DNA from: Prorocentrum cordatum
Taxonomy: Eukaryota > Sar > Dinophyceae > Prorocentrales > Prorocentraceae
DNA length: 64,000 nucleotides
Assembly (NCBI GenBank): GCA_963575745.1
Contig: CAUYUJ010000769.1
Location: 460,001-524,000 of the forward strand
Direction: 5' to 3'
The notes under the pieces: generated by a model
The model's database searches: none
What the model saw: only the letters and a program-made list of their open reading frames with translations
What the model was told of the DNA's origin: nothing
Translations under genes and position numbers: made by a program
Shown: piece by piece, positions 4,926 through 64,000 of the stretch
Position numbering within the stretch: position 1 is the first letter of the stretch
Layout: each line of letters starts with the position of its first letter

Positions 4926-4964
4926 TGAACTTCGACAACTTGTTTGGCCAGCGGCCGCAAGAGT

Positions 4965-5128
4965 GAAGAGGCCCCAGGACACACAAATAAATACACACAA
5001 ATAAAAAATATCCCCCATAGTCTCCCGTATCTTCTGGGTTTTTGTCTTCCCCCCCCCACTTCCCATATTTTCCCATGTTTTCCTGGGACTCGACGATTAA
5101 TTGTGTCTGTGATTTTTCCCCTCCTGAG
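4965..5128 (-). mobile_element. family B introner-like element, B1
   Basis: About 160 bp. On the plus strand it begins GGCCCCAGGACACACAAATA, carries CCCCCCCACTTCCCATATTT and ATCGACGATTAATTGTGTCT, and ends CCCCTCCTGAG. On the minus strand the left edge reads CTCAG|GAGGGG, the same edge used as a splice donor by copy B5 at 45.5 kb. Flanking coding sequence is not convincing here. Confidence 0.75.
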
Positions 5129-5220: not shown

Positions 5221-5392
5221 TGAAGGGACCCAAGAACACACAAAAAAATACACACAAATAAGAATATTGCCAATCTTTTTTAATATTTTTACGGGTTTTG
5301 TCTTCCCCCCCACTTCCCATATTTTCCCATATTTTCCGGGGGATCGTCGATTAACTGTGTCTGTGTGTTTTCTTCCCTCCTCAAAGATGGCC
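5221..5392 (-). mobile_element. family B introner-like element, B2
   Basis: Second copy of family B, about 100 bp to the right of B1 and in the same orientation. On the minus strand its donor-like edge is TTTGAG|GAGGGAAG. It diverges from B1 mainly in the AT-rich centre. The B1-B2 pair shows that copies can sit next to each other. Confidence 0.75.
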
Positions 5393-40065: not shown

Positions 40066-40230
40066 TTTGAAGAGGCCCTGGGACACACAAATAGATACAC
40101 ACAAATAAACATATGCCCCATATTTTGCCATTTGTTCTGGGTTTGTGTCCTCCCCCCCACTTCCCATATTTCCCCGTATTCTCTGCGGAATCGACGATTC
40201 ATTGTGTCCGTGTGCTTTTTCCCCCCCTGA
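40066..40230 (-). mobile_element. family B introner-like element, B3
   Basis: Starts TTTGAAGAGGCCCTGGGACA, contains ATCGACGATTCATTGTGTCC and ends CCCCCCCTGAG. Family M copy M3 lies about 45 bp further right. Confidence 0.75.
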
Positions 40231-41339: not shown

Positions 41340-41477
41340 GAAAAGGGGCCCCCGGACACACAAATAAATACACACAAACAAAACGATCCCCCATATCTTA
41401 TCATATGTTCTGGGTTTTTTGTTTCCCCCCCCACTTCCCATACTTTCCCATATTTTCCTAGGAATCGACGATTAATT
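41340..41477 (-). mobile_element. family B element B4, left part (interrupted)
   Basis: Starts GGGGCCCCCGGACACACAAA and stops at ATCGACGATTAATT, where the 1.9-kb composite insertion begins. The missing right part (GTGTCTGTGTGTTTTTTTCC..CTCCTGAG) resumes at 43396. Confidence 0.85.
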
Positions 41478-43395
41478 CCCAACCATCCTGCGTTAGGTTC
41501 TCGTTTTGAATAGAGCACTGCTCGCGCCTTCCTTCCCGCCCCCCCCGTCCCTCTCTTCCCCCCTGCCTTCGCTCGCCGCCGCGTGCAAGCTGGGGGGCTG
41601 CGATCTGTGAAACTGTCGCCACTTTCGAAGCCTGCTGGGGGGCCCAGCACAGTGGGTACCCACGGCGGACTCAAATGGGACCTCGCTGTCCCTGGGGGGT
41701 TGCGACCTGTGAAACTGTCGCCACTTTCGAGGCCTGCTGGGGGGGGGCCCAGCACAGCGGGTACCCACGGCGGACTCAAATGGGACCTCGCCATCCCTGG
41801 GGGTCTGCGATATGTGAAACTGTCGCCACTTTCGAGGCCTGCTGGGGGGCCCAGCGCAGTGGGTACACACGGCGGACTCAAATGGAACCTCGCCATCCCT
41901 ACGGGGCTGCGATCTGTGAAACTGTCGCCTCTTTCGAGGCCTGCATGGGGGCCCAGCGCAGTGGGTACACACGGCGGACTCAAATGGGACCTCGCCATCC
42001 CTGGGGGTCTGCGATATGTGAAACTGTCGCCACTTTCGAGGCCTGCTGGGGGGCCCAGCACAGTGGGTACACACGGCGGACTCAAATGGGACCTCGCCAT
42101 CCCTGGGGGTCTGCGATATGTGAAACTGTCGCCACTTTCGAAGCCTGCCGGGGGGCCCAGCACAGTGGGTACACACGGCGGACTCAAATTGGACCTCGCC
42201 ATCCCTGGGGGGTTGCGATAAGTGAAACTGTCGCCACTTTCGAAGCCTGCTGGGGGGCCCAGCACAGTGGGTACCCACGGCGGACTCAAATGGGACCTCG
42301 CCATCCCTGCGGGGGCTGCGATATGTGAAACTGTCGCCACTTTCGAGGCCTGCTGGGGGGCCCAGCGCAGTGGGTACACACTGCGGACTCAAATGGGACC
42401 TCGCCATCCCTGGGGGGCTGCGATGTGTGAAACTGTCGCCACTTTCGAGGCCTGCTGGGGGCCCAGCACAGTGGGTACACACGGCGGACTCAAATGGGAC
42501 CTCGCCATCCCTGCGGGTCTGCGATGGGTGAAACTGCCGCCACTTTCGAAGCCTGCTGGGGGGCCCAACGCAGTGGGTACACACGGCGGACTCAAATGGG
42601 ACCTCGCCATCCCTACGGGGCTGCGATCTGTGAAACTGTCGCCACTTTCGAAGCCTGCTGGGGGGCCAAGCGCAGTGGGTACACACGGCGGACTCAAACT
42701 AAACCTCGCCATCCCTGGGGGGCTGCGATCTGTGAAACTGTCGCCACTTGAGGGGCTTGCTGAGGGGCCCAACACAGTGGGTACCCACCGCAGACTCAAA
42801 TTAGACCTCGCCATCCCTGGGAGGCTGCGATCTGTGAAACCTTCGCCACTTTCGAGGCCTGCTGGGGGGCCCAGCACAGTGGGTACACACGGCGGACTCA
42901 AATTAGACCTCGCCACCCCTGGGGGGCTGCGATATGTAAACTGTCGCCACTTTCGAGGGCTGCTGAAGGGCACAGCACAGTGGGTACCCATCGCAGACTC
43001 AAATTCGACCTCGCCATCCCTGGGGGGCTGCGATCTGTGAAACTGTCGCCACTTTCGAGAGTTGCTGAGGGGCACAGCACAATGGGTACCCACCGCAAGA
43101 CTCAAATTAGACGCCGCGTTCGTCCTTGTTCTCCTCCTGCAGTCACCTTCCCTCTGCTGCTGCCGTGCTGATGGTTCGGCTTCGCGCACGTTTTTCTCCT
43201 GCTCTGCGTTCCCGACTCCCCATGTCCTCTTCGAGCCTGTAGCTGTCGCCCCTCGTTCTTGTATGGTTCTCCTGCGCATCATGCCATAGGCGCGTGTCCC
43301 AAGTAGCTTACACATCAAGTTGATTGTCCATGGAAGGTTCGGCCAACTCCTCGTTTCCATTGATACAAATGGGTTGGGTACGTCACAGGGTAATT
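41478..43395. mobile_element. composite insertion I1 (~1.9 kb) with satellite
   Basis: Inserted in B4. Left end CCCAACCATCCTGCGTTAGG..TCTCGTTTTGAATAGAGCAC; right end GGGTTGGGTACGTCACAGGG then TAATT. TAATT on both sides suggests a short target duplication. Inside is an array of a ~102-bp satellite. I2 at 52.09-54.16 kb has the same ends but sits in a different host element. Confidence 0.8.
41592..43110. repeat. ~102-bp satellite, array 1 (~15 units)
   Basis: Each unit has GGGGGCTGCGATCTGTGAAA, CTGTCGCCACTTTCGAGGCC, GGGCCCAGCACAGTGGGTAC and ACCTCGCCATCCCTG. Units are 85-95% identical by eye. Every frame is open, giving spurious ORFs of up to about 400 codons. Confidence 0.95.
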
Positions 43396-43425
43396 GTGTC
43401 TGTGTGTTTTTTTCCTCTCCTGAGC
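43396..43425 (-). mobile_element. family B element B4, right part
   Basis: GTGTCTGTGTGTTTTTTTCC then TCTCCTGAG completes the copy begun at 41340. Confidence 0.8.
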
Positions 43426-45032: not shown

Positions 45033-45222
45033 TGCCTACAGTCGGGGCGTTGACTTAAGGAACCCTAAATAAGGAACGAGGCCCCTTGTCCTCCATAAGT
45101 TAAGCTTCGATTTCCCACAGAAAACCAAAAGGAAAACCCAAGGCAAACTGCGAAACAATTAAGGAACACAGAGCCCCTCCCCAACACAAAGGGTTCCTTC
45201 TTCAGCGCCCCGACTGTATGCC
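45033..45222. mobile_element. MITE-like inverted repeat (intronic)
   Basis: About 190 bp; arms TGCCTACAGTCGGGGCGTTG then ACTTAAGGAACCC, and the inverse of GGCATACAGTCGGGGCGCTG then AAGAAGGAACCC. Single copy in the window. It lies in the intron just downstream of the exon at 45241-45348. Confidence 0.8.
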
Positions 45223-45240: not shown

Positions 45241-45348
45241 CTCCCTGGCGCGGTCGCGCTTCTCGACGTTCCGCGCCAGCTTGTCTCGCTCGGAGGGCGT
45301 GATCGTGGCGAGCTTCTCCTCGTAGTGCTGCAGCTCCGCCGTGGCCTC
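45241..45348 (-). CDS. exon (36 codons), helical protein
   Basis: Exactly 108 nt, phase 0 both ends: EATAELQHYEEKLATITPSE then RDKLARNVEKRDRARE, strongly charged and coiled-coil-like. Acceptor TTATGAG|GAG; donor AGGGAG|GTTCAC, the only GT donor in this series apart from 48900. The upstream intron is exactly a family B element. Joined to the exon at 45510-45635 the peptide stays in frame. Not recognised. Confidence 0.65.
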
Positions 45349-45509
45349 CTCATAAAGGGGCCCCAGGACACACAAACAAATACACACAAATAAACAGATC
45401 CCCCATATTTTCTTAAATTTTCTGGGTTTCTGTCCTCCCCCCCACTTCCCATATTTTCCCGTATTTTGCTTGGAATCAGCGATTGATTGTGTCTGTGTGT
45501 CTTTCCCTC
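45349..45509 (-). mobile_element. family B element B5 = 161-nt intron
   Basis: Family B copy lying precisely between two phase-0 exons. On the minus strand it starts |GAGGGAAAGACACACAGAC and ends GGGGCCCCTTTATGAG|. If spliced as GA..AG the reading frame is continuous (GNEDQ then EATAEL). AG|GAG is present at both junctions. Known introner elements use short duplications at AG|G sites in this way; the GA donor is inferred, not proven. Confidence 0.7.
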
Positions 45510-45635
45510 CTGATCCTCATTGCCCCGCACCAGCTGCGCTACCTCGTCGCACTCGGAGGCCACGCAGTCGCACATGAGCCGGATGTCTGCCAGCTGGCTC
45601 GCCCGCAACGCATCCTTGGGGCGCAGGAGGGCGTA
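45510..45635 (-). CDS. exon (42 codons), unknown protein
   Basis: Exactly 126 nt, phase 0 both ends: YALLRPKDALRASQLADIRL, MCDCVASECDEVAQLVRGNE, DQ. Acceptor CGGGTCAG|TAC; donor GGATCAG|GAGGGA (GA type). High third-position G/C. CDC and EC give three cysteines in a short span. Not recognised. Confidence 0.65.
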
Positions 45636-46339: not shown

Positions 46340-46715
46340 TCCCACTGACTATATTCAGGTCGGGCATGTCCTCCTACGGGCGGATCTTGGGCGAACATCC
46401 CGAGTAGTCCCGACATGCATATCCAAAGGTAGTCAAGAGCGAATTGAAACATCGTCCCCAGACTATTCTAATGTCGGGCGTGTCCCCCTACAGGGGGATT
46501 TTTGACGAAAAAAAATGAAATAACCCCAAAATGCACCAAAAAGGTCAAAAAATACTAAAAAACTAGTCCCTGGACTATTTTTGGATTATTTTTGGGGCAC
46601 TTTTTATTTTTCGTCGAAGATCCCCCTGTATGGGGACAGGCCCGACTTAAGACTATTCTTGTTTACTAGTTTTGAATATTCCTCCCGTCGAGGGGCACGC
46701 CCGACTTCGGCGTGC
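46340..46715. mobile_element. nested inverted-repeat element T
   Basis: The inner pair (46.46-46.66 kb) has arms of about 50 bp with GTCGGGCGTGTCCCCCTACA and GGGGGATTTTTGACGAAAAA facing their inverses across an A/T-rich centre. The outer pair has GTCGGGCATGTCCTCCTACG (46.36 kb) against CCCGTCGAGGGGCACGCCCG (46.69 kb). Either nested insertions or a single element with double termini. It lies in the intron after the exon at 46784-46906. Confidence 0.8.
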
Positions 46716-46783: not shown

Positions 46784-46906
46784 CTGCGAACGCCTGGGCG
46801 ACGCGCCGACGTCCTGGCACCCCGCGAAGAAGGAAGCGCACGCCGTCACGAGCATCATCGCGGACGCGTCCATCGAGTCGGAGGAGATGTCGAACGCGAG
46901 GTACTC
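46784..46906 (-). CDS. exon (41 codons), unknown protein
   Basis: Exactly 123 nt, phase 0 both ends: EYLAFDISSDSMDASAMMLV, TACASFFAGCQDVGASPRRS, Q. Acceptor CCCCTAG|GAG; donor TTCGCAG|GCACCT (GC type). The MMLVTACASFFAG stretch is hydrophobic and helical in look. Joined to the exon at 46991-47080 by removal of an 84-nt palindromic intron. Not recognised. Confidence 0.65.
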
Positions 46907-46990
46907 CTAGGGGGCCACGTGCGAGCCCTACCCCTCCCCCTCAGAAATCGTGGGGGGTAGGGGTAGGCTTCGCATGTGGCCCCCTAGCTC
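46907..46990 (-). mobile_element. 84-nt palindromic intron
   Basis: Almost the whole intron is one hairpin: CTAGGGGGCCACATGCGAAG, CCTACCCCTACCCCC on one arm and the inverse on the other, around a 13-nt loop. The splice borders are GTGCAG|GAGCTA and CCCCTAG|GAG, i.e. GA..AG, phase 0. CTAG at both hairpin ends may be the insertion footprint. No second copy was seen in this window. Confidence 0.7.
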
Positions 46991-47080
46991 CTGCACGGCC
47001 TGCATCAGGCCCATCTGCGCCAGGTTCAGGCCCTCGTAGCTCTCCGCCATCTTCCGGGCCGCGTCCTGCACGGCGCTCAC
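46991..47080 (-). CDS. exon (30 codons), unknown protein
   Basis: Exactly 90 nt, phase 0: VSAVQDAARKMAESYEGLNL then AQMGLMQAVQ, an amphipathic helix by appearance. Acceptor CGCCTCCCCAG|GTG with a good pyrimidine tract; donor GTGCAG|GAG. Third positions strongly G/C. Confidence 0.65.
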
Positions 47081-47084
47081 CTGG

Positions 47085-47240
47085 GGAGGCGGAGACGTGC
47101 CAACAGTTCCCGCTGCTGCCCGGACCTCTTCTGGAGTGCGTGCTGACTGAGGATTTCGAGGCGACTCCAGCGTTGGCGACGAGGGCCTGCCAGGAGGCCC
47201 CCCGAGGCGAGAACGACAGAAGTGCCCAGCGGTGTCGGTG
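47085..47240. repeat. family A fragment (intronic)
   Basis: CCAACAGTTCCCGCTGCTG, GAGGCGACTCCAGCGTTGGC and GGGCCTGCCAGGAGGCCCCC resemble 32.89-32.99 kb and family A. Occupies the intron between the exons at 47.08 and 47.25 kb. Confidence 0.45.
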
Positions 47241-62914: not shown

Positions 62915-64000
62915 TCACGCTGATACGTCGATCCACTCCGAGAGTTCTTCTCCCATATCCTCAGTCTGGTCGGTGACCATGAACACACTCTCGATCATGT
63001 TCGACTGGTAGCAATTCACGCGGCGGCAGAACATCACGAAATCTGGCGGGTCGCCCACCATGGCCGCCGACCACTCCACGAGTGTCTGCCAGTTGGCGCG
63101 CCCCACCTCCATCTTTGCCAAGCACTCGACCATCGCGGCGTCACCCGCGTCCCTTGCCGCCTTTTTCTTGTCCTTGAACAGATTGACCTTGTCCCTCAGT
63201 GCCCGCGCGTCGAACGAGAACGTCTGGGCCTCCACCTGCCAGGCATTGGCATCCTCCATGTAGTCCTCCAAGATCACCGTCTTCATGCTCATGCCCCTCA
63301 CCGCGCGGCACCGCCGCGCACGTTGGGTGTCCCGTAGCCTCGACCCCAACGCTGGCACCACGTCCTGCTTGCTCCGAATCAGCGCATACTGCCGTGCTGC
63401 CGGCGACTGGTCCATGTACATGTCGCTCCTCTTGGGTACCACCACACCGTCCGCAGCGTGGGCCATACCCTTCGGCACCTGCAGCGGCTTGAAGATATCG
63501 CCCATGGGCGCGCCCACGCAGGAGCTCACCATGAACTTGCAGAAGGTGATGGTCGTACACTCAGCGTTCTGTCTTCTCTCGAAGGCCGCCCCCACGTGGA
63601 CCACGTGATAGTTCTGCATGAGAGTCTCTGGCACCGACGTGTCGCCCTTGGGGCGCCCGCTGCCACTGCGAACGGCACACCTCGCATCGACCGCGTCGAT
63701 ACTCACAGTGAGGTTGCACCTGCGTGTCCTCGTCACGTTCGTGGCGTAGCGGATGTCCTCCTCATCCAGCTCCTTGATCAGGTGTGCCGTGTGCCCCGTC
63801 ATGATCGCCCTACTCTCCAGCATCTCGAAGGCCGCACGATGGGACTCGGGCTCATTCTGCAACTCCTCCAGCAACTCTTCTCGCCCTTCACCAGTGAGAG
63901 TCGCCTGGCTGAGTTTGGTACGGTCCCACCTCGCACGCATGGGGGTGCTCTGGCCGTAGGAGCCCGCGAAGGTGGGGCCGCAGTCGTGGCACGTGTTGAT
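62915..64000 (-). CDS. partial uncharacterised protein (5' end outside)
   Basis: 361 codons and a TGA stop at 62915; the frame stays open to the right edge, so the start lies beyond the window and the ATG at 63940 is internal. No intron in over 1 kb, unlike the other minus-strand exons. Near the edge it has TCHDCGPTFAGSYGQ, whose C-x2-C could be half of a zinc site. It then has mixed helical, charged regions such as GREELLEELQNEPESHRAAF and VNLFKDKKKAARDAGDAAMV, and ends TDQTEDMGEELSEWIDVSA. Codon third positions are mostly G/C. No family assigned; it could be a retrogene or a domain of a repeated dinoflagellate protein. Confident that it is coding, not about its function. Confidence 0.85.
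   Translation of the reverse strand: MNTCHDCGPTFAGSYGQSTPMRARWDRTKLSQATLTGEGREELLEELQNEPESHRAAFEMLESRAIMTGHTAHLIKELDEEDIRYATNVTRTRRCNLTVSIDAVDARCAVRSGSGRPKGDTSVPETLMQNYHVVHVGAAFERRQNAECTTITFCKFMVSSCVGAPMGDIFKPLQVPKGMAHAADGVVVPKRSDMYMDQSPAARQYALIRSKQDVVPALGSRLRDTQRARRCRAVRGMSMKTVILEDYMEDANAWQVEAQTFSFDARALRDKVNLFKDKKKAARDAGDAAMVECLAKMEVGRANWQTLVEWSAAMVGDPPDFVMFCRRVNCYQSNMIESVFMVTDQTEDMGEELSEWIDVSA

Follow-up and report, generated by a model that had tools for sequence, protein, structure and literature searches.

Introners in which the target site duplication (TSD) supplies splice sites, GA donors included, are described in the available portions of Gozashti et al. 2022 (PMC9860276). In that material, both splice sites come from the TSD or insertion site in Florenciella, and the 5' site does so in Symbiodinium. 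Dinoflagellate introners were also treated by Roy et al. 2023, here as summarised in the accessible part of PMC11453091. For Prorocentrum cordatum itself, the sections of PMC10666404 at hand give a published assembly of 4.15 Gb in 22,724 scaffolds with 59.7% G+C, intron donors of GT (24.7%), GC (51.4%) and GA (23.8%), an AGG acceptor context in 79.7%, and a mean exon length of 240 bp. According to the same sections, the introns are enriched in 'introner elements', which were called by their repeat pattern: inverted repeats 8-20 nt long plus direct repeats of 3-5 nt, at most 30 bases from the intron ends.

In this study, we analysed a 64,000-nt stretch of P. cordatum DNA (the window; G+C mostly 55-65%), in which one copy of a repeat, family B, lies between two coding-like stretches on the minus strand. 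MITEs are non-autonomous DNA transposons that are short and very numerous and have TSDs of fixed length and terminal inverted repeats. Like MITEs, family B is short, has very many copies and a fixed-length TSD; unlike them, its terminal inverted repeats are imperfect (TCAGGAGGGG versus TGAAGGGGCC). We give a probability of about 70% to the reading that a MITE-like B copy in an exon became a GA-AG intron via AG|G in both TSD copies, the splicing being predicted from the DNA sequence.

Compared with introners of dinoflagellates and other eukaryotes, as far as the cited excerpts present them, family B is likewise a repeat with TSDs, apparent introns in several genes and recruited splice sites. 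It differs from them in having no clear enrichment in coding sequence, a 5-bp TSD and weak terminal inverted repeats; both of its predicted splice sites come from the TSD, and its donors are GA or GT. The introner elements of Amoebophrya, in the portions available of PMC7789003, are similar in being repeated introns with direct repeats at their borders in a dinoflagellate host, but their borders are non-canonical and vary greatly and their inverted repeats measure 8-20 nt, whereas the borders of family B are AG|GA or AG|GT and are set by the TSD. The introner rule of PMC10666404, as worded in the sections at hand, would catch few B copies, since perfect terminal inverted repeats of at least 8 nt occur in 13 of the 117 clean copies, although it could catch the window copy and that at locus L018. 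No description of family B was found in the literature searched, which comprised parts of freely accessible articles without their supplements.

We searched a 4.13 Gb genome assembly (21,875 contigs) for family B by BLAST. With the 161 nt given in a preliminary description of the window as the query, 40 places were scored out of 3,172 genome candidates, and two other window B copies yielded the best 40 of 4,451 and the best 40 of 3,816 candidates. The sampled copies are best matches to three window copies and form a non-random sample. The first set comprised 78 fetched loci with 93 long B copies, both ends being recognisable in 85. The second set contained 37 fetched places, 36 of the 40 from the third window-copy query and one from the second; the window itself, one place already in the sample and two at contig ends were omitted. 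Of these 37 places 35 were counted, L079 and L110 being excluded because they share their border with another copy, as was L068 from the first set. The contig pairs L068/L069, L079/L080 and L110/L111 share identical 50 bases at the B-copy border; they are probably duplicated or allelic assembly stretches, and each pair was counted once. The full set amounted to 131 B copies, 117 of them clean.

The copy alignment showed an element of about 163 bp (median 163 bp, 85 copies), TCAGGAGGG...CCCCTTCA, with strong conservation of TCAGGAGGG at its start across the family. An exact 5-bp TSD was present in 60 of the 85 clean copies of the first set, and the per-position match between the two TSD copies was 81-87% in these 85, compared to 20-34% with shuffled partners. 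In the full set, the TSD was exact over 5 bp or more in 83 of the 131 copies. Among the 117 clean copies, the TSD measured exactly 5 bp in 80, 6 bp in 2 and 7 bp in 1, and a TSD of at least 3 bp was absent in 31. The median divergence from the family consensus was 5.5%, in copies picked for similarity. The longest perfect terminal inverted repeat is 7 nt in the consensus, 8 nt in the window copy and L018, and 7 nt in L083 and L102. Imperfect, weakly inverted-repeat-like termini and fixed-length TSDs make the anatomy MITE-like, and family B therefore looks like a short non-autonomous MITE-like DNA element, presumably moved by a transposase. A B-box-like stretch was also noticed by eye, and a SINE origin was considered. 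A search of viral contigs with one 33-base pattern of the family gave 0 exact matches. The 233,743 bases surrounding the first 78 fetched copies held 15 extra B copies; if these surroundings are typical, the genome copy number would be of the order of 10^5, an estimate from a sample biased upward.

In the window, alignment confirmed the copy reported at 45.2-45.6 kb as well as the other reported copies, four of them long and one a fragment (Table 1); BLAST with the 161-nt query returned these four long copies together with short pieces. All five long copies have the same orientation. In the preliminary description the other copies would, if its reading is right, mark recent insertions. This is not supported: the five long copies have 86-90% identity to the consensus, and the copy at 45.2-45.6 kb, hereafter the window copy, has 19 differences in 161 sites (11.8%, one indel event) from the closest subfamily consensus and a difference of 14.1% including gaps from the family consensus. 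The window copy spans TCAG to TTTA in sense, and its TSD is 6 bp long, against a family norm of 5 bp. In the preliminary description the element was exactly the intron, bordered by CAG|GAG and GAG|GAG. The ends fixed by the TSDs place it otherwise: the CAG|GAG site sits 4 nt inside the element, and the GAG|GAG site falls in the duplicated target.

Table 1. Positions of the family B copies in the window and of the parts of the interrupted exon
Feature	Position	Strand	Basis or remark
Family B element, 161 bp, sense TCAGGAGGG...GGGGCCCCTTTA	45353-45513	minus	Copy alignment and TSDs
Upstream TSD copy, TGAGGA (sense), with predicted donor AG|GA	45514-45519	minus	Exact 6-bp direct repeat
Downstream TSD copy, TGAGGA (sense), with predicted acceptor AG|GA	45347-45352	minus	Exact 6-bp direct repeat
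Predicted GA-AG intron, 167 nt: element and parts of both TSD copies	45349-45515	minus	Sequence and splice options
Exon, left half, 40 codons; acceptor-like CAG| before it	45516-45635	minus	GC3 0.88 over 45510-45635
Exon, right half, 36 codons; then GAG|GTTCAC (GT donor-like)	45241-45348	minus	GC3 0.97
Family B copy	4964-5127	minus	Flanks not coding-like in sense
Family B copy	5221-5383	minus	5-bp TSD ATCTT; flanks not coding-like in sense
Family B copy	40068-40230	minus	Flanks not coding-like in sense
Family B copy	41341-41504	minus	Degraded 5' end; flanks not coding-like in sense
Family B fragment, 5' end only	about 43393-43411	minus	BLAST

The two stretches beside the window copy had been described as coding, and the codon composition supports this. 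At the first, second and third codon positions, the right half has a G+C content of 0.69/0.42/0.97 and the left half (over 45510-45635) one of 0.74/0.40/0.88, with one frame common to both. Cutting out the predicted intron restores an exact 228-nt pre-insertion exon, near the mean exon length stated in the sections at hand of PMC10666404 (240 bp), and if the element is retained, the right half is out of frame. Of 18,172 placements of the same shape within the window, 27% gave an open joined frame, so such a frame alone is weak evidence of coding, and we rejected it as proof. An open frame with a GC3 of at least 0.85 and a GC3-GC2 difference of at least 0.3 was reached by 0.1%, a figure that includes the true exons. 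The flanking stretches are very probably a single coding exon. A homologue search with this exon among proteins of similar length gave none at E<=0.001, in a database perhaps poor in dinoflagellate proteins; the best PDB match had E=0.48, and Pfam returned 0 families for five window proteins. On the same strand, 46784-46906 and 46931-47113 have a coding-like codon composition, with no Pfam match, and are possibly upstream exons of the interrupted gene.

The intron could have arisen as follows. Family B would duplicate 5 bp of its target, rarely 6 or 7, and one copy would have inserted in sense into the 228-nt coding exon at ...AATGAGGAGGCC..., where duplication of the target TGAGGA would leave AG|GA at either end of the element. 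With a host spliceosome that accepts GA donors, AG|GA in the upstream TSD copy would act as the donor and AG|G in the downstream copy as the acceptor. Positions 45349-45515 would be removed, and the resulting mRNA would be identical to the pre-insertion mRNA. Both splice signals of the window intron seem to derive from host letters duplicated at insertion.

The window offers two possible GA donors, a TSD donor, AG|GATCAG, and an element donor, CAG|GAGGG. With the former the exact pre-insertion sequence is obtained and with the latter 6 nt are added; both are in frame, so the choice between them is not settled by frame. The GA-AG border first proposed holds for the predicted intron, but the donor that restores the exon exactly lies in the TSD, 6 nt upstream of the donor first chosen. 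That earlier choice would mean that the element brings its own donor, TCAG|GAGGG, takes the acceptor from the target and adds Asp-Gln to the window product. Removal of 45349-45509 indeed joins GNEDQ to EATAEL in frame, as reported, the sequence TCAGGAGGG shows good conservation among B copies, and extra codons after introner insertion are known in another alga (available portions of PMC9860276). The bearing of other copies on this is different. Clear coding composition on both sides was found at the window and at L018 (TSD AGGAG), L083 (AGGAT) and L102 (GAGGT), four loci without evident mutual relation whose introns are predicted. A donor inside the element would leave 7 extra nt in L018 and L083, breaking the frame, and 6 nt in L102 and the window, whereas a TSD-borne donor restores the frame in all four. 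AG|G is present at both ends in 4 of 4, and an element-borne donor leaves the AGG in the TSD of the coding copies unexplained. We consider such a donor improbable. The predicted introns are GA-AG in the window, L018 and L083, and GT-AG in L102. With this GT donor, and with coding flanks in just 4 of the 83 exact-TSD copies, the proposal of GA-donor introners as a general description of family B is not supported.

The L102 locus codes for a coiled coil. Once joined at the TSD, its exon (query residues 3-124) aligns with residues 791-913 of 8tek_N, whose name is flagella associated protein, at E=8e-8; we take chain N of 8tek to be a CCDC39-like protein of Tetrahymena. The alignment is ungapped at the junction, with one single-residue gap a few residues beyond. 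The joined exon scored 36.0 bits, compared to 30.4 bits for the left half alone, and the right half alone found nothing. The L102 queries also matched unrelated chains, phage capsid-like (E=2e-4 and 4e-4) and C-type lectin (7e-4). Since a coiled coil yields chance matches, the 8tek_N alignment lends moderate support to the predicted joined exon of L102. For L018, no homologue was found at E<=0.001 among proteins of similar length, and the best PDB match had E=0.027; for L083, neither PDB nor Pfam gave a match. The only Pfam matches for L018 and L102 were below the curated cut-offs.

After the first 78 loci, AG|GA was noted in the TSD of both coding cases then known, and this was generalised to AG|G. 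Among the 83 copies whose TSD is exact over 5 bp or more, coding flanks in the predicted sense were found in 4 of 7 with AGG in the TSD and in 0 of 76 others (P=1.9e-5); with the window copy excluded, the counts were 3 of 6 and 0 of 76 (P=2.3e-4). In the 35 copies fetched after the hypothesis, 23 of which had such a TSD, the flanks were coding in 2 of 2 AGG copies and 0 of 21 others (P=0.004); in the earlier set this was so in 2 of 5 and 0 of 55 (P=0.006). The coding thresholds were set after the copies had been inspected; nine settings were run, and the sign was the same in all, the loosest giving 4 of 7 against 2 of 76 in sense (P=2.7e-4). In antisense, where introns with AG|GTGAAG donors were considered, coding flanks occurred in 0 of 5 AGG copies and 0 of 78 others, the latter rising to as many as 2 of 78 at the loosest thresholds. 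This count omits 48 of the 131 copies, which had no clean ends or no exact TSD; the single coding-like case among them, L002, is antisense, in low-complexity sequence and without an exact TSD. Three of the 7 AGG copies (L027, L048 and L076) have no clear coding flanks.

It appears from these counts that B insertions into exons persist when the TSD supplies AG|G at both ends, with survivorship as the simplest reading. Exon insertions would last mainly where the TSD has AG|G, most other sampled copies lying outside recognisable coding sequence, and selection would be the cause of the association. An insertion preference of the family for AGG in coding DNA, unrelated to splicing, could produce the same association, and insertion preferences are common in DNA elements. 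We consider this very improbable, as the TSDs are not clearly AGG-rich overall (AGG 7/83 and CCT 5/83, against 5.2% and 7.2% in the flanks) and the coding-flanked AGG copies were seen only in the sense orientation. Family B showed no clear excess in coding sequence, with 4 of 83 copies in sense and 0 of 83 in antisense compared to 82 of 3200 nearby strand-positions (2.6%), and the idea that it lies mostly in coding sequence was rejected on these counts. Earlier, differently set counts gave 1 of 85 in sense and 0 in antisense, against 3.8% and 3.3% nearby, and 4 of 116 against 7.6% on both strands.

The window insertion might also have struck a dead gene or former exon, a chance MITE insertion into a pseudogene or unexpressed gene without splicing. 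The window gene has no homologue in the searches described, and coding flanks at B copies are no commoner than nearby, both of which suit this explanation. However, frame and high GC3 are intact despite 11.8% divergence of the element. In a simulation of neutral decay to that divergence, 14-20% of runs kept the frame open and about 0.2% kept an open frame together with the present GC3; at 6% divergence these values were 34-42% and 3-4%, and in an earlier simulation that allowed more indels they were 9% and 0.1% at 12% divergence. The decay model used uniform substitution, which would underestimate the GC3 figures if mutation favours G+C. These results support, without proving, that the interrupted gene is still in use and hence that the predicted intron is spliced. 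The AGG rule common to the four exon cases would also be unexpected in dead exons, and we regard insertion into a dead gene as unlikely.

If a TSD can make an intron in this way, it would write AG|GA at both ends of the insertion, and any family with a short TSD could make introns at AG|G in exons, with splice sites of its own needless. The relaxed donors of dinoflagellates (GA, GC and GT) would then both follow from such a supply of introns and permit it. Family B would offer countable intron birth by a transposon not specialised for genes, in which a few duplicated letters seem to decide whether an exon tolerates the insertion. It would also explain simply where dinoflagellates got their GA donors and AGG acceptor context. 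With its non-coding copies as a built-in control, one genome would suffice to measure what a new intron costs and how far each splice-site letter is needed. Introner-type elements were already known, but family B and its proposed exon-tolerance rule are directly testable. A speculative extension, which we think rather doubtful, is that dinoflagellate GA-AG introns, a class making up about a quarter of all introns in P. cordatum, mostly go back to ordinary transposons that inserted at AGGA sites, with the corollaries for TSD and donors.

Several other features were observed in the window and the fetched loci. On the minus strand, 62918-64000 is an open stretch of 361 codons with strong coding composition and no Pfam match, which runs off the window. 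The sequence at 45034-45221, immediately downstream of the right exon half, is a different repeat. It has inverted ends, ACAGTCGGGGCG...CGCCCCGACTGT, and is flanked by a short repeat near GGCAT; L021 and L025 carry similar sequence by or near B. A further family, C, with inverted ends of roughly TTAAGTCGGGC...CTACAGG / CCTGTAGG...GCCCGACTTAA, was seen at 46357-46390 and 46486-46594 of the window and in many fetched loci, including L018, L083, L031, L045 and L053. In L018 and L083 it stands directly behind the coding stretch that follows B. A further exon border behind B in these two loci was considered and rejected, since the sequence is the end of the family C repeat. By eye, the family C copy of L018 has a flanking repeat ending in TTTAGG, and family C may be a second intron-making element.
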